Assembly (NCBI GenBank): GCA_001512665.1
Contig: LFSF01000002.1
Location: forward strand, 1 to 44,226
Length of the DNA: 44,226 bases
Direction: 5' to 3'
Source of the DNA: Clostridiales bacterium DTU073
Lineage (GTDB): Bacteria > Bacillota > Peptococcia > DRI-13 > DTU073
Shown here: in pieces, positions 4,488 through 44,104 of the stretch
Numbering within the stretch: position 1 is the stretch's first letter
Layout of the letters: each line of letters begins with the position of its first letter
The notes under the pieces: model-generated
Databases searched by the model: none
The model's input: the letters and a program-made list of their open reading frames with translations, nothing else
What the model was told of the DNA's origin: nothing
Made by a program: the position numbers and the translations under genes

Positions 4488-5219
4488 ATGCGGAGAGATT
4501 ATCAAGTAGAATTTGCCAACAGAGTATCATTTATTAAGGATGTACTTAAAAAAAGCGGAGCATCCGGTATAGTTTTTGGAAACAGTGGCGGTAAGGACAG
4601 TGCCTTGGTGGGTATCCTCTGTAAAGCAGCTTGTGCAAATACTGTGGGGATAATTATGCCTTGCTCGGCTAAACGGAATTTTGGTCTGGATAAGGAGGAC
4701 GGTTTAGAGTTGGCCAAGCAGTTTGATATTGAAACACGGATAATTGATCTTACTGCACAAAAGGAGCTGGTGCTGGATAACTTAAAGCAAATCACTACAC
4801 CTACTCAATCGGCTATAGCTAATATTGCGCCACGGTTAAGGATGATTACACTTTATGCGGTAGCAGCCAGTGAGGGACGCTTGGTAGCGGGGACAGGTAA
4901 TAGGAGTGAGATCTTTATGGGTTATTTCACAAAATGGGGCGATGGGGCATATGATCTTAATCCTATTGCTGATTTGACCGTTACGGAGGTTTATGAATTT
5001 TTGAAATATCTAAATGCCCCGAAGAGTATTTTGGAAAAGGCTCCATCCGGGGGGCTTTTTGAAGGTCAGACTGATGAAGCAGAAATGGGTGTCAGCTATC
5101 AAGCGATTGATGAATATATCACTACGGGACAGGTCACTGAACGTGATAAGGAGATAATTGATAGATTTCACCTCGGAAGTGAGCATAAACGCGTAGGCCC
5201 GGTTGTTTATAAGCCGTAA
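4488..5219 (+). CDS. nadE: NH3-dependent NAD+ synthetase
   Basis: A 243-residue cytoplasmic enzyme that amidates nicotinic acid adenine dinucleotide with ATP and ammonia to form NAD+. The ATP-pyrophosphatase loop SGGKDS is at residues 33-38. GTGNRSE and the following Lys/Asp-rich segment (FTKWGDGAYDLNPIADLT) form the deamido-NAD site. There is no N-terminal glutaminase domain, so free ammonia is the nitrogen donor. The ribosome binding site is GGGGGAA eight bases upstream. The next gene, a corrinoid adenosyltransferase, follows after 49 bases and is probably co-transcribed. A second NAD gene, nadD, lies far away at 26838. Confidence 0.95.
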   Translation: MRRDYQVEFANRVSFIKDVLKKSGASGIVFGNSGGKDSALVGILCKAACANTVGIIMPCSAKRNFGLDKEDGLELAKQFDIETRIIDLTAQKELVLDNLKQITTPTQSAIANIAPRLRMITLYAVAASEGRLVAGTGNRSEIFMGYFTKWGDGAYDLNPIADLTVTEVYEFLKYLNAPKSILEKAPSGGLFEGQTDEAEMGVSYQAIDEYITTGQVTERDKEIIDRFHLGSEHKRVGPVVYKP

Positions 5220-33280: not shown

Positions 33281-33338
33281 AAAAAATTAAAGAAAATAGC
33301 TTTTGTTTTGTAATTATTTGATTAAATGGGGTGATCTT

Positions 33339-33698
33339 GTGGCTGTAAACCATGATTTTTGTGAGATGCCATGCGTTCATCAGGAAAATGTAGACAGAGT
33401 CAAAGGAAAGGCTCTTACACCAGAGGAAATTTTAGGGTTATCTGAGATCTTTAAAACCTTAGGAGATCCTACGCGTTTGCGGATTTTACAGGCTTTATCA
33501 CAAGAGGAACTTTGTGTCTGTGATTTAGTGGAAGTATTGGAAATGACGCAATCGGCAGTTTCACATCAATTGAGAGTTTTGAGAGATCAGCGTTTGGTTA
33601 AATATCGTAAGGAAGGAAAAATGGTTTTTTACTCCTTAGATGATGAGCATATAATTAATCTCTTTGCCCAAGGGTTAGCGCATGTTCGTCATAAATGA
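33339..33698 (+). CDS. cadC: CadC-type metal-responsive repressor (ArsR/SmtB family)
   Basis: A 119-residue winged-helix repressor. The GTG at 33339 has GGGGTGAT upstream; a longer frame to 33303 adds residues not seen in the family. Metal ligands of the CadC type are visible: the N-terminal DFCEMPC pair, and ELCVCDL at the start of the recognition region (the alpha3N Cd/Pb site). A possible alpha5 site is carried by DDEHI and GLAHVRH. The HTH is TQSAVSHQLRVLRDQRLV. Metal binding should release it from the operator at 33261 and switch on cadA, which follows after 52 bases. Confidence 0.92.
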   Translation: MAVNHDFCEMPCVHQENVDRVKGKALTPEEILGLSEIFKTLGDPTRLRILQALSQEELCVCDLVEVLEMTQSAVSHQLRVLRDQRLVKYRKEGKMVFYSLDDEHIINLFAQGLAHVRHK

Positions 33699-33750
33699 AT
33701 AATCATGCCTAAGTTATGACAACCGAGTGAGTGGAAGAGGGGGAAATAAG

Positions 33751-35712
33751 ATGTGTCAAGCTAAGTGTGAGTTAAACATAGAACAGGAAAAAAATATAAA
33801 GTGGGAAGAAAACATGGAGCAGGAAGAAAACATGGAACAGGAAGAAAAACTGGAGTTAATTCGACTAGGGATAGGTATATTGCTTTATCTGGTGGTGTTA
33901 TTACTAAATTTTTCCCCTGTAATAGAATTAGCTTTTTTCGGTTTAAGCTATCTATTAATTGGTGGTGAAGTGGTTCTTAAAGCGTTTCTCAATTTGCAAC
34001 GCGGGAAGGTGTTTGACGAAAATTTTTTGATGACTCTTGCGACAATAGGAGCCTTTGCTATTCAGGAGTATCCGGAAGCAGTAGCGGTAATGCTTTTTTA
34101 TCAAATCGGGGAATTTTTTGAGGATAAGGCTGTAAACCGTTCTCGCCGCTCTATTAAAGCACTTTTGGACATCCGTCCTGATTTTGCTAATCTTCAAAAG
34201 GGTGAAGAGCTTATTCGGGTTAGTCCGGAAGAAGTAGCGGTTGGCGAGGTGATTATGATTAAGCCGGGGGAAAAGGTACCTCTCGACGGCATTATTATTA
34301 AAGGCCAATCGCTGATGGATACAGCGGTATTAACCGGTGAATCTGTTCCGAGAAGAGTGGAAATTGGTGACGAGATTTTAAGTGGTTTTATTAATACCAG
34401 TGGGGTTATATCTATGAAAGTTACGAGGGAATTTGGGGAGTCTACGGTGGCAAAAATTCTCAATTTAGTTGAAAATGCCGGTCATAAAAAAGCCCCTACG
34501 GAGAACTTTATTACTAAGTTTGCTCGTTATTATACTCCGGCAGTTGTTGCGGTAGCGCTAGTACTAGCTGTAATTCCTCCTTTAATCATTCCCGGAGCGC
34601 TCTTCTCTGATTGGCTGTATCGGGCTCTGGTTTTTTTGGTGGTATCATGTCCTTGTGCGCTGGTTATTTCTATTCCTTTGGGCTTTTTCGGCGGTATTGG
34701 TTGTGCTTCCCAAAATGGGATACTGGTGAAAGGCAGTAATTATTTAGAAGCCTTAAATCATGTTAATTCTGTAGTTTTTGATAAGACCGGGACTCTTACT
34801 AAAGGGGTCTTTAAGGTTACCGATCTTGTTCCTGCAGAGGGCTTTACCCGGGAACAGTTGTTAGAGGCTGCTGCACTTGCGGAGGTATATTCTACACATC
34901 CTATTGCTAAATCTATTCTTGAAGCCTATAGTTTTGAGGCAAATAAAAAGATTATTTCTAAAGAGAGAATTGATTTATATGAGGAGATGGCCGGACTTGG
35001 TGTTAAAGTTGTGGTTGAAGGGAAAACAATCTATGCCGGGAACAGAAAACTGTTGGCTCAAGTAGGAATTACTCTTGACAAGCCGGAAGTTTTCGGGACA
35101 GTAGTTCATGTAATCATTGACAGCGAATATGCAGGCTACCTGCTTATCTCTGATGAAGTTAAAGAGGACAGTGCCTCGGCTATAGCAGGGTTGAAACAGA
35201 TGGGGATAAGAAGATTAGTGATGTTATCCGGTGACGATAAGGATGTTGCAGCTCATGTTGCCGGAGAATTAAAGCTAGCTGAAGTTTATGCAGAACTTTT
35301 ACCTCATGAAAAGGTTGTCAAGACTGAAGAAATTTACGCAACTAAAGGGAAAGGTAAACTGGTTTTTGTTGGTGACGGAATCAATGATGCTCCTGTACTC
35401 GCCCGGGCAGATGTAGGCGTAGCGATGGGGGGGTTGGGTTCTGATGCTGCTATTGAAGCTGCGGATGTGGTGATTATGACAGATGAACCCTCGAAATTAG
35501 TCACGGCGATAAAAATAGCCAAAAGAACCAGGAGTATAGTTTGGCAAAATATTATTATTGCTTTAGGGGTGAAAGGGATTGTTCTGGTATTAGGAGCAGG
35601 TGGTGTGGCTACTTTGTGGGCGGCTGTATTTGCTGATGTAGGTGTAGCTGTTATTGCTATTCTGAATGCCTTGCGGGTTCTGAACACCAGAGTAATGGAG
35701 ATAACTAGTTAA
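33751..35712 (+). CDS. cadA: P1B-2-type Zn2+/Cd2+/Pb2+ exporting ATPase
   Basis: A 653-residue membrane pump. The start at 33751 has GAGGGGG upstream. Motifs: TGES in the actuator domain, SCPCALV (CPC metal site), DKTGTLTKG with phosphorylated Asp344, STHPIAKS (HP locus), GDGINDAP, and the late FADVGVAVIAILNALR, whose Asp is a Zn/Cd ligand in this subgroup. The usual N-terminal HMA domain is missing. Instead there is a CxxxC pair (MCQAKC) and a Glu-rich tail built on an 18-base tandem repeat. It exports divalent soft metals under CadC control. Its intact catalytic motifs contrast with the CopA-like protein at 41684. Confidence 0.94.
   Translation: MCQAKCELNIEQEKNIKWEENMEQEENMEQEEKLELIRLGIGILLYLVVLLLNFSPVIELAFFGLSYLLIGGEVVLKAFLNLQRGKVFDENFLMTLATIGAFAIQEYPEAVAVMLFYQIGEFFEDKAVNRSRRSIKALLDIRPDFANLQKGEELIRVSPEEVAVGEVIMIKPGEKVPLDGIIIKGQSLMDTAVLTGESVPRRVEIGDEILSGFINTSGVISMKVTREFGESTVAKILNLVENAGHKKAPTENFITKFARYYTPAVVAVALVLAVIPPLIIPGALFSDWLYRALVFLVVSCPCALVISIPLGFFGGIGCASQNGILVKGSNYLEALNHVNSVVFDKTGTLTKGVFKVTDLVPAEGFTREQLLEAAALAEVYSTHPIAKSILEAYSFEANKKIISKERIDLYEEMAGLGVKVVVEGKTIYAGNRKLLAQVGITLDKPEVFGTVVHVIIDSEYAGYLLISDEVKEDSASAIAGLKQMGIRRLVMLSGDDKDVAAHVAGELKLAEVYAELLPHEKVVKTEEIYATKGKGKLVFVGDGINDAPVLARADVGVAMGGLGSDAAIEAADVVIMTDEPSKLVTAIKIAKRTRSIVWQNIIIALGVKGIVLVLGAGGVATLWAAVFADVGVAVIAILNALRVLNTRVMEITS
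33805..33855 (+). repeat. 18-base tandem repeat in the cadA 5' end
   Basis: Two copies of GAAGAAAACATGGAGCAG (second with GAACAG) and a partial third, encoding repeated EENMEQ. It makes an acidic, probably flexible tail where an HMA domain normally sits. Confidence 0.85.
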
Positions 35713-36055: not shown

Positions 36056-36287
36056 GATCATCACTCTCAGTTGTTTTATTTAATATATGTTATGATTTTA
36101 ATGAAAAATGTTTTCTTTGGTTAAGCTATTTAAGTTTTAAAGATTTTTTGAATTAAATCCAAAATTTTACTGGATTTCTTATTAAAAAAAGTATATTATT
36201 AAATTTATTTAATTGGTTAATTTAACAAGAAAAAGGGTAGTTATTTTAATTGGGGTTTTTGAGTTCAAAAGGAGGTTATTTAGTAGA

Positions 36288-39002
36288 ATGCAAGAAAAAA
36301 ATTGGTTTTCTTTTGAAGTAAAAGAGGTCGAACAGCAACTAAACTCTAATTTAGAAGTTGGTTTGTCCACTGAGGAAGTAAATACTCGGTTGGAAACATA
36401 TGGCCATAATACTTTAAAAGAAGCACCACCGCGCAGCTTGTTGGCGATGTTTATTGATCAAATAAAGGAGCCGTTGGTCTTAATTCTACTTATTGCGGCA
36501 ATTATTTCAGGTATAGTAGGAGAAGTTGCCGATACTGTTCTTATTCTGGTCATTGTTGTTTTGAATGCGGCTCTGGGTGTGTTTCAGGAGAATAAGGCAG
36601 AACAAGCTCTACAAGCTTTAAAAGCTATGACCAAGACGTATGTTAAAGTAATTCGAGATGGAAAGACAACGCAAACCCCAGCTGAAGATCTGGTACCTGG
36701 TGATATTATCTTACTGGAAGCCGGGGATTCAGTACCTGCTGATGCTCGTTTGATCGAAGCGGCTTCTTTACGCGTAAATGAAGCGGCTATGACCGGTGAA
36801 TCGGTTCCGGTAGAAAAATCTCTTGAGGTTATTACGGCAGAAGATGTTCCGCTAGGAGATCGCAAAAATATGGTCTTAGCAGGAACGGCAGTAACTGGGG
36901 GAAGGGCTAAAGCTGTGGTTACAGGAACTGGGATGAATACAGAGCTGGGGAAAATTGCCCAAATGCTTCAAGATGCTCCTAAAGAGCAAACCCCTTTACA
37001 GCGTCAATTGGCTAAATTGGGTAAAACATTGGGGCTGATAGCTTTAGCAATTGTAATTATCGTCTTCATTACCGGTATTTTGCGGGGCGAAGAAATCTTT
37101 AATATGTTTATGACTGCTATTGCCTTAGCGGTTGCAGCTATTCCGGAAGGGTTGCCGGCTGTGGTAACAATTGTTTTAGCTCTTGGTGTAACCAGGATGA
37201 GTCATAGAAATGCGGTTATTAGAAAACTCCCGGCAGTTGAAACTCTGGGTGTGGCTACATATATTTGTTCGGATAAAACCGGTACACTAACGAAAAATGA
37301 AATGACCACTATTGGGCTTTATGTCTATGATCAGATGTTGCAAGTTACCGGTGGGGGTTATGTACCGGAAGGTGAATTTTATACAGCAGAGGAAAGTAAA
37401 ATTGCTCCACTGGATAATAAGGTCTTACGGTTATTACTTATGGGCGGTGTATTGAATACAGATGCACGTTTGGAGCAAAGTAAGGGAACCTATGGAATTA
37501 TTGGTGATCCTACAGAAGGTGCTTTAGTAGTTGTGGGCGCTAAGGCCGGACTGTGGAAAGAAGATCTGGAAAAAACATATCCTCGTTTAGAAGAGATTCC
37601 TTTTGATTCAGCTCGTAAAATGATGACTACTTTTCACGATATTGAGGGAGAACTTTGTTCTTTAACTAAAGGTGCACCGGATATTCTTATTGCCCTTTGT
37701 AAGGATGCGTTGACTTCAGAGGGAGTTAAAGAGCTAAATCAAGAGATTCGCGATAAACTATTAGAGGTAAATAAGAGTTTGGCATCTCAAGGTCAACGTG
37801 TTTTAGCTTTAGCCGTACGTAAATGGGGCGAAATCCCCAGTCAATTAGATTCAGAACATGTGGAAACGGATTTGACTTTTGTGGGGTATTTTGCTTTGCA
37901 GGATCCTCCGCGTGATGAAGTAAAAGATGCTGTTGCGGTTAGTCGTCGCGCCGGAATTAAAACAGTAATGATTACCGGTGACCATCAGGATACAGCTGTG
38001 GCTATCGCTCAAAAGTTAGATATATGGCGAGAGGGCGACAATATTCTCACCGGAATTCAATTAGAAAAAATGTCTCAGGAAGAGTTAGAAAAGCAGGTTA
38101 TGAAGACAACCGTATATGCTCGTGTTTCACCGGAACATAAACTCCGTATAGTGGATGCCTTAAAGGCTAAGCAACAGATTGTAGCTATGACCGGTGACGG
38201 AGTTAATGACGCTCCTGCTCTCAAAAGAGCGGATATCGGTGCGGCTATGGGTATAACGGGTACAGAAGTATCGAAAGAAGCTTCGGATATGGTTCTGCTT
38301 GATGATAATTTTGCCACCATTGTAAATGCCGTCGAGGAAGGTAGAACAATTTATGATAATATCCGTAAAGCTGTGCAATATTTGCTCTCTTGTAATTTAG
38401 GCGAGATCGTTGCTATTTTTACGGCGATTCTTTTGGGTCTGGGCAGTCCTTTACTTCCGGTACAAATTCTTTGGATGAATCTTGTTACAGATAGTGCCCC
38501 TGCTTTAGCTTTAGGTGTGGAACCTACGGAAAGAGGGGTTATGAAGAGAAAACCTCGTAATTCACATGCAGGAATTTTTGCTGATGGTGTAGGGCTCGAG
38601 ATTTTTATTCAAGGTATGGTTATTGGTTTGGTTTCTTTTGGTGCATATTGGGCGGCTATCTTAGAGGGAAGACCTTTAGTTGAGGCACGTACCATGGCAT
38701 TTTTGACCATGGCTTTCTCTCAGCTTGTTCATTCTTTTAATATGCGGAGCAGAGAAGAATCTGTTTTTGCCTTTGCGAAAAATCCTAACAGTAAATTAGT
38801 TTTAGCTTTCTTGGTTTGTGCATTACTACAACTAGTTGTTGTTTTTGTTCCTTTCTTAAGAGAACTCTTTGATACAGCATTGTTACAGACTCAGGATTGG
38901 CTGATTGTTTTAGCTTTAAGTTTGTCACCAATGTTGGTCGTGGAAATTATAAAATTAATCAAGAGGATGAACAAGAAAGTTTTAACTAGTGATAATGCCT
39001 AA
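36288..39002 (+). CDS. P2A-type Ca2+-transporting ATPase
   Basis: A 904-residue P-type pump of the SERCA/PacL/LMCA type. The ATG at 36288 follows GGAGG at 36271-36275. The N-terminal cation ATPase domain (GLSTEEVNTRLETYGHN) comes first. Then come MTGESVPVEK, AAIPEGLPAVVTIVLALG (the M4 calcium site with Glu in PEGL), DKTGTLTKNE with Asp329, GDPTEGALVV, MTGDGVNDAP, and NLVTDSAPALALGVEP (M6 site with Asn, Thr and Asp). All catalytic residues are present. It exports Ca2+ from the cytoplasm; whether it has one or two sites is not decided here. It is a single gene closed by a strong terminator. Confidence 0.93.
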   Translation: MQEKNWFSFEVKEVEQQLNSNLEVGLSTEEVNTRLETYGHNTLKEAPPRSLLAMFIDQIKEPLVLILLIAAIISGIVGEVADTVLILVIVVLNAALGVFQENKAEQALQALKAMTKTYVKVIRDGKTTQTPAEDLVPGDIILLEAGDSVPADARLIEAASLRVNEAAMTGESVPVEKSLEVITAEDVPLGDRKNMVLAGTAVTGGRAKAVVTGTGMNTELGKIAQMLQDAPKEQTPLQRQLAKLGKTLGLIALAIVIIVFITGILRGEEIFNMFMTAIALAVAAIPEGLPAVVTIVLALGVTRMSHRNAVIRKLPAVETLGVATYICSDKTGTLTKNEMTTIGLYVYDQMLQVTGGGYVPEGEFYTAEESKIAPLDNKVLRLLLMGGVLNTDARLEQSKGTYGIIGDPTEGALVVVGAKAGLWKEDLEKTYPRLEEIPFDSARKMMTTFHDIEGELCSLTKGAPDILIALCKDALTSEGVKELNQEIRDKLLEVNKSLASQGQRVLALAVRKWGEIPSQLDSEHVETDLTFVGYFALQDPPRDEVKDAVAVSRRAGIKTVMITGDHQDTAVAIAQKLDIWREGDNILTGIQLEKMSQEELEKQVMKTTVYARVSPEHKLRIVDALKAKQQIVAMTGDGVNDAPALKRADIGAAMGITGTEVSKEASDMVLLDDNFATIVNAVEEGRTIYDNIRKAVQYLLSCNLGEIVAIFTAILLGLGSPLLPVQILWMNLVTDSAPALALGVEPTERGVMKRKPRNSHAGIFADGVGLEIFIQGMVIGLVSFGAYWAAILEGRPLVEARTMAFLTMAFSQLVHSFNMRSREESVFAFAKNPNSKLVLAFLVCALLQLVVVFVPFLRELFDTALLQTQDWLIVLALSLSPMLVVEIIKLIKRMNKKVLTSDNA

Positions 39003-39202: not shown

Positions 39203-41440
39203 ATGAAAAGGAGAGGAAAAAAATTTTTTAAGCAAATAGTAGCGTGGTGTACTGTCTTTACGTTATGCTTATCTTTTACTCCGGGAAATTTGATAGCGGC
39301 TCAGGAACCGCCTGTTTCCTTGGAAAAGGCTGTTCAGACAGCCAAGAGAGCATTTGACATACCAAAGGAGTTCTCGGATTTTTCTTCGGGATATGGTCAG
39401 TATGACCAACATCAGGCTTGGCAATTACGGTGGAGTTCTGCTAAAGAACCAAGAGGAAATATGTATGTGCAGGTGGATTCGCAAACTGCGGAGATTTTAC
39501 AGATGAGTTTCTGGCAGGCTAGTAAAGAACCGTCTACTATGGGTATTCTTCCTGCAATCTCTAGGGAAGAAGCAATTGAGATAGCTGCTGAATTAGTGAA
39601 CTCCTTACAGTCTCAACGCATGTCTGAGTTGAAGCTGGAAGAAACCGGGGAGGAAATCTTACCGCTGACTTTGTGGTCCCCTAGTACATACAGGATTAAA
39701 TGGACGCGTCAAGTCCAGGGAGTACCTTTTCCACAGGATGGTGTTACTGTTAATGTAGATAATCAAACGGGGAGGATTACCGGCTATAATTTTAATTGGA
39801 CTGAGGGCAATTTTCCGGATGCGGAGCAAGCCATTGACTTAGCAGAGGCCAGAGCAGCTTGGGATAAAGCGGAAATGCTGCAACTGCAGTATTTTTATCC
39901 AAATATTAGAGATGCGGAAGAGCCGGAGGCAGAACGGAAAGTTATGCTTGTTTATCGTTTAGTTCATCCTTCGCAAGGAATTCTGGATGCCCTTACAGGA
40001 AAGCCTTTAGAATTTAGTGGGGGTATAGGTATTGATGAAATTGCTAAAACCAATGGCAGTCTGATGGAAAAAGCAATGGACAGGGGAGAGGAAATAATTC
40101 TTACTCCGGAGGAAATTAAAGAAATAGAGGCTGCCGGTCAAGTAATTTCGCAAAAAGATGCTGAAACAGTAGTGGGACAGTGGGTCCTTATCCCCGAATA
40201 TTTAACTTTGCAAAGTGCACGTTTAAGTAAAGATGAACAACGTGCAGCGGAAGCACGTACTTGGTATTTGAGCTGGCGTAATCAAAACAGAGAGTCGAAT
40301 GATGGTGAGGTCAGTTGGGTAGAGGCTAGTGTTGATGCGATTAGCGGAGAATTGTTAGGTTTTAGTTGGGATAAATATGTAATTAAAGAAGACGGTCAAC
40401 AGGTTAAACGGCTTAATCGTAAGGAAGCACAAGAGAAAGCCGAGGCTTTCTTACGGGAAATACAACCGGAATTATTTAAGCAGGTAAAGTTGAATGAATT
40501 ACAAGTTGCTGAACCGCCTCGTCCTTTAGCTGTAGAACAGCTTCCTTTAAAACAGTATTTTTCCTATGAAAGGATAGTAAACGACGTGGTCTTTCCTACT
40601 AACGGGCTGTCGGTGTCTGTAGATACCACTACCGGAGAAATCAACTCTTATAGTTTAAGATGGCAGCAGCTGCAATTTCCAGCTCCGGAAGGAATTTTAA
40701 ATGCGGCACAAATTAATGAGCAATATTTAAGTAGACAGCCTCTTACCTTGCAGTATATGGAGAGAGCGGAAACACCTCAAGTTAGAATTATGGAGATTCC
40801 TCGGAGTAACAATAAGGAAATTAGCTTAGTTTATCGCCCTGTGCTTATACCCGGACAGCGGAATGAAGCAATGTGTGATGCTAAGACCGGTGCCCCTTTA
40901 GATTGGCAAGGGAAACCTTTGGCTAAACAACCAATACCCTATAGTTTTACGGATATTTCCGGACATTGGGCAGAAAAAGAGATTGCCTTGCTTGGTCAAG
41001 CCGGTATTTTAGGGGATTATGGTAATACGTTTAATCCAGAGAGACCCATTACTGCTGTTCAATTTTTACGTGCACTTTTGATGTTGGAAAGAGGTGTAGA
41101 ACAGGTACAAACTTTAAATGATGACGAAGTAATTAAAGAAGCTACAGATTTGGGTTGGTTAAAAGAAAAACTCCAAGCGGGTGATTCTATTAATCGCTTG
41201 TTGTTGGCCCGTTGGGGAATACGCTTTTTGGGTCTGGAAAAAGTAGCCGGTATTGAAGGGATCTATACTGCACCTTATCAAGACTTTGCCGGTATTTCAG
41301 CTCCGGATCAGGGATATGTAGCACTTACATGGGGGTTAGGAGTCTTAAAAGGAGAGCAGGGCTTTTTCCGGCCGGAGCAAACAGTAACTCGAGCACAAGC
41401 AGCAGTTACTTTGGTGAGATTATTAAAGACTCAATGGTGA
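39203..41440 (+). CDS. secreted YcdB/YcdC-repeat protein with S-layer homology domains
   Basis: A 745-residue exported protein. A Sec signal peptide (basic start MKRRGKKFFK, hydrophobic core, cleavage near residue 33) is followed by several PepSY-like YcdB/YcdC repeats. Repeat hallmarks such as VPFPQDGVTVNVDNQTGRI and VVFPTNGLSVSVDTTTGEI recur twice, separated by about 290 residues. The C-terminus has SLH domains (FTDISGHWAEKEIALLGQAG, then FRPEQTVTRAQAAVTLVRLL). SLH domains bind pyruvylated secondary cell-wall polymers, so it is anchored on the envelope. The role of YcdB repeats is unknown, perhaps peptidase inhibition. The start has GGGGAGG 12 bases upstream. Confidence 0.9.
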   Translation: MKRRGKKFFKQIVAWCTVFTLCLSFTPGNLIAAQEPPVSLEKAVQTAKRAFDIPKEFSDFSSGYGQYDQHQAWQLRWSSAKEPRGNMYVQVDSQTAEILQMSFWQASKEPSTMGILPAISREEAIEIAAELVNSLQSQRMSELKLEETGEEILPLTLWSPSTYRIKWTRQVQGVPFPQDGVTVNVDNQTGRITGYNFNWTEGNFPDAEQAIDLAEARAAWDKAEMLQLQYFYPNIRDAEEPEAERKVMLVYRLVHPSQGILDALTGKPLEFSGGIGIDEIAKTNGSLMEKAMDRGEEIILTPEEIKEIEAAGQVISQKDAETVVGQWVLIPEYLTLQSARLSKDEQRAAEARTWYLSWRNQNRESNDGEVSWVEASVDAISGELLGFSWDKYVIKEDGQQVKRLNRKEAQEKAEAFLREIQPELFKQVKLNELQVAEPPRPLAVEQLPLKQYFSYERIVNDVVFPTNGLSVSVDTTTGEINSYSLRWQQLQFPAPEGILNAAQINEQYLSRQPLTLQYMERAETPQVRIMEIPRSNNKEISLVYRPVLIPGQRNEAMCDAKTGAPLDWQGKPLAKQPIPYSFTDISGHWAEKEIALLGQAGILGDYGNTFNPERPITAVQFLRALLMLERGVEQVQTLNDDEVIKEATDLGWLKEKLQAGDSINRLLLARWGIRFLGLEKVAGIEGIYTAPYQDFAGISAPDQGYVALTWGLGVLKGEQGFFRPEQTVTRAQAAVTLVRLLKTQW

Positions 41441-41513: not shown

Positions 41514-41649
41514 GAAGACATAATTTGATAAATAGGGTAACAAAAAAATATCTAAATAATTTATAATATAAAGGTAATTAAGCAGGGATTGTTAGAAGCT
41601 TTCTTGAATAATTATCTTGTTAGCATATGTTAGTATTTAGTGTTTTGTA

Positions 41650-41683: not shown

Positions 41684-44104
41684 GTGCACAAGGTGGAAAG
41701 AATAACTTTGCAGATTCAAGGCCTAAAAGGTACAACATGTGCTGCTGAAATTGAAAAGTCATTAGAAAAAATGAAAGGGGTATCCGATGCTTTTATAAAT
41801 TTAGCATTGGAAAAATTAACTGTAGAATATGACCCTGTTGTGATCAATCTCGATCAAATTAATTATAGAATTAAGCAACTAGGTTTTACTTTAATTGAAG
41901 ATAGTGTGACTTTAAAGGTTCGTGGGTTAAAATGTGCAGACTGTGCCATCAAAATTGAAAAGAAATTAAAACAGGTTCCCGGTGTATGTAGAGTTACTGT
42001 GAACTATGTTGCAGAAAAGCTCTTTCTTACTTATTATTCCTCACAGGTCAGTGTTAAAGAAGTTATGGATATCCTTGAAAAGCTTGGTTATGATGTTGTT
42101 TCAATAAATGATTGTATGGGAATGAGTAAGGAAAAAGAAATCAGAGCACATGATGTGCAAAGTCAGAAAAGATACTTTTTTTTCGCAGTACTGCTTTCTT
42201 TGCCGCTGTTACTTTATATGCTGGCGGAAATCTTTCTTTGGAATTGGGTGCCGGAGTTTTTTGGTAACAAGTATTTCCAGTTGGCTTTGGCTACACCTAT
42301 TCAATTTATCGCCGGAGCACAGTTTTACAGAGAAGCTTATTATGCTCTTAAGAATAAATGCACCAACATGTCAGTACTCATTGTGTTGGGGACTTCAGCT
42401 GCCTATTTTTTTAGTCTGGCTGTGGTTATTTGGGAAGAGCAAATGCAATATCAATATGTCTACTTTGATACTTCTGCCTTAATTATGACGATTGTTATTT
42501 TAGGTAAATTATTGGAATCATTGGTTAAAGGTAAAACTACTGAATCTATTGAAATGTTAATGGATTTACAGGCAAAAAAGGCGCGAGTGCTTCGAGACGG
42601 GGAAGAAAAAGAGATACCTCTTGTTGAAGTTGAAATTGGTGATATTCTTTTGGTTCGTCCTGGGGAAAAAATTCCGGTTGATGGCGTAATTATTGAAGGT
42701 TTTACCTCTGTTGATGAGTCGATGTTCACCGGGGAAAGCATACCTGTGGATAAAAAAGTAGGTGATAAAGTTATCGGTGCCACGATCAATAGATATGGCA
42801 CATTTAAGTATGAAGCTGTTAAGGTCGGTGCAGATACAGTCTTAGCTCGGATAATTAAAGCTGTAGAAAATGTACTCAGTTCAAAAACTCCGATTCAACG
42901 TACAGTTGATGTTATTTCCGCATATTTTGTTCCGGTAGTTTTGATTACAGCTATATTTGTATTTGTAGCTTGGTATACCTTTTTGGATATAGGAAATTTT
43001 AATCGTGCGCTGATTAATTTTATAGCGGTTTTAGTGATTGCCTGTCCTTGTGCATTAGGTTTAGCCACACCGACGGCTATTGTGGCTGGTGCCGGGAAAG
43101 CTGCTGAATACGGAATTCTCATTAAAGGTGGGGAGCACTTAGAAAATGCCCAGAAGGTAGACACTGTTGTTTTACAGAAAACAGGGATTATCACTAATGG
43201 ACAACCTGAAGTTTCGGATATTGTTTCTCTATCTTCTTTCTCGACTGAGGAAATCTTGCGTTTTGCGGCTATTGCGGAGGAAGCATCTGAACACCCTATA
43301 GGAAAAGCAATTGTGGAGAGAATTAAAAGAAACTGCCCAAATTTACCTGATGCTACAAAGTACACGGTCCTACCTGGGCGGGGCGTGAAAGCAGAGGTGG
43401 AAGGGCAGAAAGTGTTGGTAGGCAACAGAAAATTATTGCAAGAAAATAACATTTCTCTAGATACAGTAGAAAGTAAAGTAGAAGAACTAGAGATACAGGG
43501 TAAAACTGTAGTGTTGGTAGCTGTTGGACAGCAAGTGTCAGGAATTATTGCTGTAGCAGATACTTTAAAGGATAATGCCATGGCCGCTATTACTGAATTA
43601 CGTGCTATGGGTATTGAGATTATAATAATTACCGGTGATAATTACCGTACAACACGGGCTATTGCGGAACAGTTAGGGATAAAACGTGTTATTGCAGATG
43701 TGCTTCCGGAGGATAAAGCTAAGGAAATAGAAAAATTAAAGGCAATGGGTAAAGTTATAGTTATGGTGGGAGATGGTATCTATGATGCTCCGACGTTAAT
43801 TTCGGCTGATGTCAGTTTAGTAATTGGTTCCGGGATAGATGCTGCCATTGAAGCCGCTGATATTACGTTGTTAAGAGATGATTTACGTGGCGTTCCCGCC
43901 AGTATCAAATTGAGTCGGGCAACGATGAGAAATGTTAAACAAAATCTTTTTTGGGCTTTAATCTATAATGCTTTAGGAATTCCTATTGCGGCAGCCGGTT
44001 TGTTAAATCCGGTATTCGCCGGTGGGGCGATGGTCTTTAGTTCTGTTTCTGTTTTGCTAAATTCGCTGCGGCTAAGGCGGTGGAAATATAATGACATGAG
44101 TTGA
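41684..44104 (+). CDS. CopA-like P1B-type ATPase homolog with a mutated catalytic site (probable pseudo-ATPase)
   Basis: An 806-residue protein with full copper-ATPase architecture: two N-terminal HMA domains, eight membrane segments, actuator, P and N domains. HMA1 has lost one metal Cys (GLKGTTC, Gly16 in its place); HMA2 is intact (CADC, Cys84 and Cys87). TGES (349-352), [12 protein letters not shown] (Cys454, Cys456), EHP (His537), TGDN, the YN of helix 7 and the Met/Ser-Ser of helix 8 (AMVFSS) are kept. The phosphorylation motif DKTGTLT reads QKTGIIT, with Gln498 (CAG, 43175-43177) in place of the Asp. GDGIND reads GDGIYD (Tyr700). It therefore should not form the aspartyl-phosphate and probably binds copper without pumping. 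The start is GTG with GGGGAG upstream. Confidence 0.88.

Follow-up and report, generated by a model that had tools for sequence, protein, structure and literature searches.

A CopA-type copper ATPase gene with glutamine in place of the phosphorylated aspartate

Described P-type ATPases and the window gene

The phosphorylated aspartate is the defining feature of P-type ATPases, and its phosphorylation by ATP drives the E1P-E2P change in these pumps. The closest described systems to the protein analysed here are the CopA copper exporters of A. fulgidus (PDB 3J09, 7R0G) and Legionella (3RFU), of which A. fulgidus CopA (3J09) matches it over the full length of the sequence (E = 6.7e-179). Replacement of the aspartate has been reported to abolish activity in SERCA (D351N), the Na,K-ATPase (D369N), the H,K-ATPase (D386N) and ERMA (D427N) (PMC13322241). 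ERMA/TMEM94 resembles the window protein in its divergent P-domain motifs (DKQGI, GSSANL); however, it retains D427, on which its activity depends, and is a eukaryotic protein that does not belong to the P1B group (PMC13322241). An Asp-less P1B-1 ATPase is represented by the ATP7B mutant C983S/C985S/D1027A (PDB 7XUK, 7XUN), which folds well enough for structure determination and is a fold match of the predicted window protein. This mutant is engineered and has lost the CPC cysteines too, whereas the window protein is natural and its CPC motif is intact. A limited literature search for natural P-type ATPase pseudoenzymes found none without the aspartate; Plasmodium guanylyl cyclase-alpha retains its Asp.

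The window, i.e. the whole analysed stretch of 44,226 nucleotides, corresponds to the complete contig C50 of a 1.67 Mb genome (96.4% complete). Its copA-type (P1B-1) gene is located at 41684..44104 on the + strand and forms an uninterrupted frame of 806 codons with a GTG start, although a second GTG at 41693, which agrees with the starts of the homologs, is the probable true start. Codon 498 (43175-43177) is CAG, encoding glutamine, and the phosphorylated Asp of DKTGT is absent. The surrounding motif (43175..43195, +) reads QKTGIIT instead of DKTGTIT (D498Q, T502I), the second Thr of DKTGT being additionally replaced by Ile within the phosphorylation loop. GDGINDAP is represented by GDGIYDAP (43769..43792, +), in which N700Y (AAT to TAT) removes the Asn of the Mg2+/phosphate site and leaves both Asp residues of the motif in place. 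The earlier note had described both altered motifs in an open frame of this length, as the reading frame and the alignment confirm, and had argued that Asp to Gln needs two base changes, in agreement with the GAT codon found in the sister genome (G004) against CAG here. Its remark that the CadA and Ca-ATPase genes of the window have normal motifs also holds, since both read DKTGTLT, GDGxNDA and TGES.

The gene stops 122 bases before the end of the contig, in a dispersed repeat, and the genome is metagenome-assembled, which may raise the question of a sequence or assembly artefact. Such an origin is very improbable: besides the double change in codon 498, N700Y and T502I are independent substitutions, errors would be expected to break the frame too, and the excess changes are distributed over the whole gene.

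Domain organization and the copper path

By sequence and fold, the window protein is a P1B-1 copper ATPase (CopA). It scores 558.1 bits with the copper-translocating ATPase model TIGR01511 (cut-off 397), and AlphaFold models it with the entire P-type fold (mean pLDDT 75.5), CopA and ATP7B being the best structural matches (TM 0.63-0.64 by query for A. fulgidus CopA, 7R0G). As the TIGR01511 cut-off is passed, annotation pipelines would label even a dead pump as a copper exporter, which calls for caution.

The first HMA domain (41705..41887, +) has no CxxC (GTTCAAE), and the second (41909..42094, +) carries an intact one (C84, C87). The CxxC of HMA1 is also absent in three orthologs of the family, which points to loss of the first copper-binding domain at the level of the family; in contrast, a relative from genome G007 has two intact HMA motifs. 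The following elements, all on the + strand, are intact: (i) TGES, the dephosphorylation motif of the A domain (residues 349-352; 42728..42739); (ii) the CPC copper motif of M4 (C454/C456; 43043..43051); (iii) the HP motif of the N domain (H537-P538; 43292..43297); (iv) the YN copper-site motif of M5 (Y761-N762; 43964..43969); (v) the MxxSS copper-site motif of M6 (M783, S786, S787; 44030..44044). The earlier note had listed these elements as preserved, and each was verified by a residue check. Further catalytic residues are also in place, namely TGD (650-652), K678, D697 and D701.

The residues of the copper path have been mapped from A. fulgidus CopA (PMC9433437) through the alignment to 3J09, and all ten are kept: M229, E278, D409, C454, C456, Y761, N762, M783, S786 and S787. 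In the A. fulgidus enzyme, these ten make up the entry and the high-affinity sites for copper, and the first three align with M158, E205 and D336, its copper entry residues (PMC9433437). The window protein thereby shares every copper-path residue with the CopA exporters (3J09, 7R0G, 3RFU) and differs from them in the Gln for Asp, the Tyr for the Asn of GDGxND, the Ile for the second Thr and the CxxC-less HMA1.

Because the Asp is gone and N700Y and T502I are present, a phosphoenzyme cycle and pumping are not expected, as judged from the behaviour of the family, while copper binding at HMA2 and at the membrane sites is expected to remain. If made, the protein would still be expected to adopt its fold and to bind Cu(I) through HMA2, CPC and MxxSS, but would neither pass through E1P and E2P nor pump. 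Residual transport, through phosphorylation of another residue or through a passive or ATP-gated copper path, would be consistent with the intact TGES, TGD, HP, K678, D697 and D701 and with an ATP-site fold that is predicted to be kept. It is nevertheless improbable, given the reported loss of P-type ATPase activity upon replacement of the catalytic Asp (PMC13322241), and N700 and T502 are gone as well. The complete copper path argues for another reading, that of a retained pseudo-ATPase whose fold and copper sites are under selection, acting as a membrane copper buffer, a sensor or a partner that takes over Cu(I) from a chaperone, via HMA2 and the CPC/MxxSS site, and does not pump; this alternative is possible but doubtful.

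Orthologs, gene order and the second copA

Upstream of the window copA, and on the same strand, lie an ArsR-family regulator with a CadA-type ATPase (33303..35712, +), a Ca2+-type P-ATPase (36213..39002, +) and a YcdB/YcdC-repeat protein with SLH (39203..41440, +). The order ArsR-CadA-CaATPase-YcdB/SLH-CopA is identical in G001, the YcdB/SLH-CopA pair is preserved in G002, and in G004 CopA directly follows the Ca-ATPase. The copA genes of G004 (JAQVYD010000043.1), G002 and G001 encode proteins of 61-71% identity to the window protein, and the conserved gene order indicates that they are true orthologs. The window gene belongs to these orthologs, which represent a second copper exporter (P1B-1, CopA-like) present in the family and the class. 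Genome G005 (93% complete) possesses the YcdB/SLH gene and has the copA of this clade neither there nor elsewhere, so that the gene may be dispensable. In G004, a short stretch similar to the beginning of the YcdB/SLH gene lies between the Ca-ATPase and copA (L015, about 4590-4690), which suggests an internal deletion of the neighbour gene.

A promoter-like (-10) element, TTTATAATATAA (41560..41571, +), precedes the window copA, and the G004 ortholog has it upstream as well. Its role would be that of a promoter, and its presence at both genes is in line with a retained pseudo-ATPase. A sigma-70 scan upstream of the window copA gave nothing above chance and did not pick up this element.

The three syntenic orthologs share with the window protein the CxxC-less HMA1 as well as the gene order; unlike it, all of them keep DKTGTIT and GDGINDAP. 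The Asp and the Asn are kept in 30 of the 30 relatives aligned from class-, family- and order-level and genome-collection searches. A clade sharing the Gln, as suggested in the earlier note, was sought in the class-level, family-level and genome-collection searches and not found; Q498 occurs in one genome only, with Asp in every relative examined. A DNA pattern with Q, H, N or K in front of KTG[T/I]xTxG, which detects those four residues and this spelling of the motif only, gave 7 matches in 399 genomes of the phylum; the window's own is the sole P-type ATPase among them, and the six others include none. As a positive control, the same pattern with Asp was run over 101 genomes and matched in 98 of them, usually at 1-6 sites per genome. 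The apparently non-canonical LKTG (G012) and GKTG (L016) in a regular-expression scan were mis-hits, both proteins having DKTGT.

The genome of the window encodes a second copA (contig C41), which is canonical and has a CsoR-family repressor gene immediately in front of it, so the window copy may be redundant; the earlier note had proposed looking for such a gene. One strong CopA match only is present in each of G001 and G002. The canonical copA genes of G004 (C160, L014) and G006 (C86, L012) are nearly identical, although these genomes belong to different genera of the family. This suggests a recent transfer or cross-binning of a contig, and weakens the claim that G004 has a second copA of its own.

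Rate, constraint and the state of the gene

In a relative-rate test with G002 as the outgroup, 110 unique changes were counted in the window copA and 53 in that of G004 (chi2 19.9), whereas the neighbouring Ca-ATPase is clock-like (45 vs 36, chi2 1.0). The acceleration of the window copA is about two-fold relative to its sister and is gene-specific. The other 11 close relatives share 330 invariant sites; the window protein differs at 35 of these, compared with at most 17 changes in any relative. These changes affect 12 of 134 sites in the membrane domain, 7 of 57 in the A domain, 11 of 89 in the P domain, 4 of 26 in the N domain and none of 14 in HMA2; the intact HMA2 favours a retained pseudo-ATPase, and the nearly even spread over the membrane, A and P domains speaks against it. 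When the comparison is made with 30 sequences of wider diversity, 121 sites are invariant and 11 of them are changed in the window protein: the P domain accounts for 8 (of its 43) and the membrane domain for 1, with 41 of its 42 sites kept. The P-domain excess (Fisher P = 0.016 against the rest) also points to selection on the copper sites, but as a post hoc contrast of small counts.

The codon model, although weakened by saturated synonymous sites, indicates an unconstrained fraction on the window branch (2dlnL 22), followed by G004 (13.6), most other branches being near zero. This fraction is about equal across domains, and a model with no such fraction in the membrane domain is worse by 3.8 lnL. 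Plain branch omega is of little use here, the synonymous sites being saturated and G004 also raised. A relaxation confined to the catalytic domain finds support in the deep-invariant count, but the codon model does not prefer it. Selection acting on the copper path and no longer on catalysis, as proposed in the earlier note, is accordingly no more than possible: the deep-invariant losses agree with it, and the equal relaxation in the codon model does not. The weakening of constraint extends over the gene as a whole and perhaps began before this lineage and G004 diverged.

The changes themselves are conservative. Radical substitutions (BLOSUM62 < 0) account for 4 of the 35 conserved-site changes, compared with 8 of 59 (13.6%) in functional relatives and with 46% expected neutrally from mutation alone (P = 1.6e-5). 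The drastic changes are T502I and N700Y in the phosphorylation site, along with D498Q, the others being S226C and K291M; the placement of several of these few changes in the active site, like the conservative nature of the rest and the lack of stops, supports a retained pseudo-ATPase. No stops or frameshifts are present in the 806 codons, nor any internal indels relative to G004. About 5 nonsense changes would be expected if the fitted fraction were fully neutral. Of the 35 changes, no more than about 14 can be fully neutral (5% level, more lenient count), which corresponds to about 1.5 expected stops, and zero stops are therefore unsurprising if the inactivation is recent. An old, freely neutral pseudogene is ruled out by the open frame and the radical-change test. 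Simple decay had been tied in the earlier note to relatives that all carry Asp and to a lone mutated copy accumulating stops; the former has been found, and stops are not accumulating.

Judged on its codons and alignments, the gene is relaxed yet not freely neutral. Since the frame is intact, the changes are conservative and the loss is biased to the P domain, either the inactivation would be recent or the protein would still be under selection. The reading that we narrowly hold to be probable is that of a redundant copper exporter lately inactivated by missense changes in one lineage, its frame still open. The second copA would have rendered the window copy redundant, and constraint would have weakened first, some signal being present in the sister G004 too, with the catalytic residues lost afterwards. 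D498Q, N700Y and T502I would then have knocked out the phosphorylation site so recently that neither a stop nor a frameshift has yet arisen.

Against this reading stands the copper-binding pseudo-ATPase of the earlier note. The parts of that proposal which stood are the catalytic cycle that is not expected, the whole copper path, the second copA and the conservative changes, and the part which fell is the Gln clade. With a single genome, a retained pseudoenzyme would lack the clade needed to convince, and neither a partner nor a new domain is seen. That the protein is a natural P1B-type pseudo-ATPase serving as a buffer, a sensor or a partner of the CsoR-linked CopA is rather unlikely.

If the protein is retained, the P-type scaffold would be reusable without catalysis, as with pseudokinases, and would offer a natural non-cycling protein for the study of the copper-bound state. 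If the gene is in an early stage of loss, which is judged the likelier, it would illustrate a redundant metal exporter dying by active-site missense changes while its frame is open.

On contig C31 of the same genome, a P1B-like ATPase (L028, 2791-4692) carries GCPGAL at the position expected for CPC, with DKTGTLT intact, and is followed by a stand-alone HMA protein of 79 aa (L028, 4742-4981). The copA stop is directly followed by the end of the contig (44105-44226), which lies in a dispersed repeat; about 20 copies of this repeat, complete or partial, are present in the genome.
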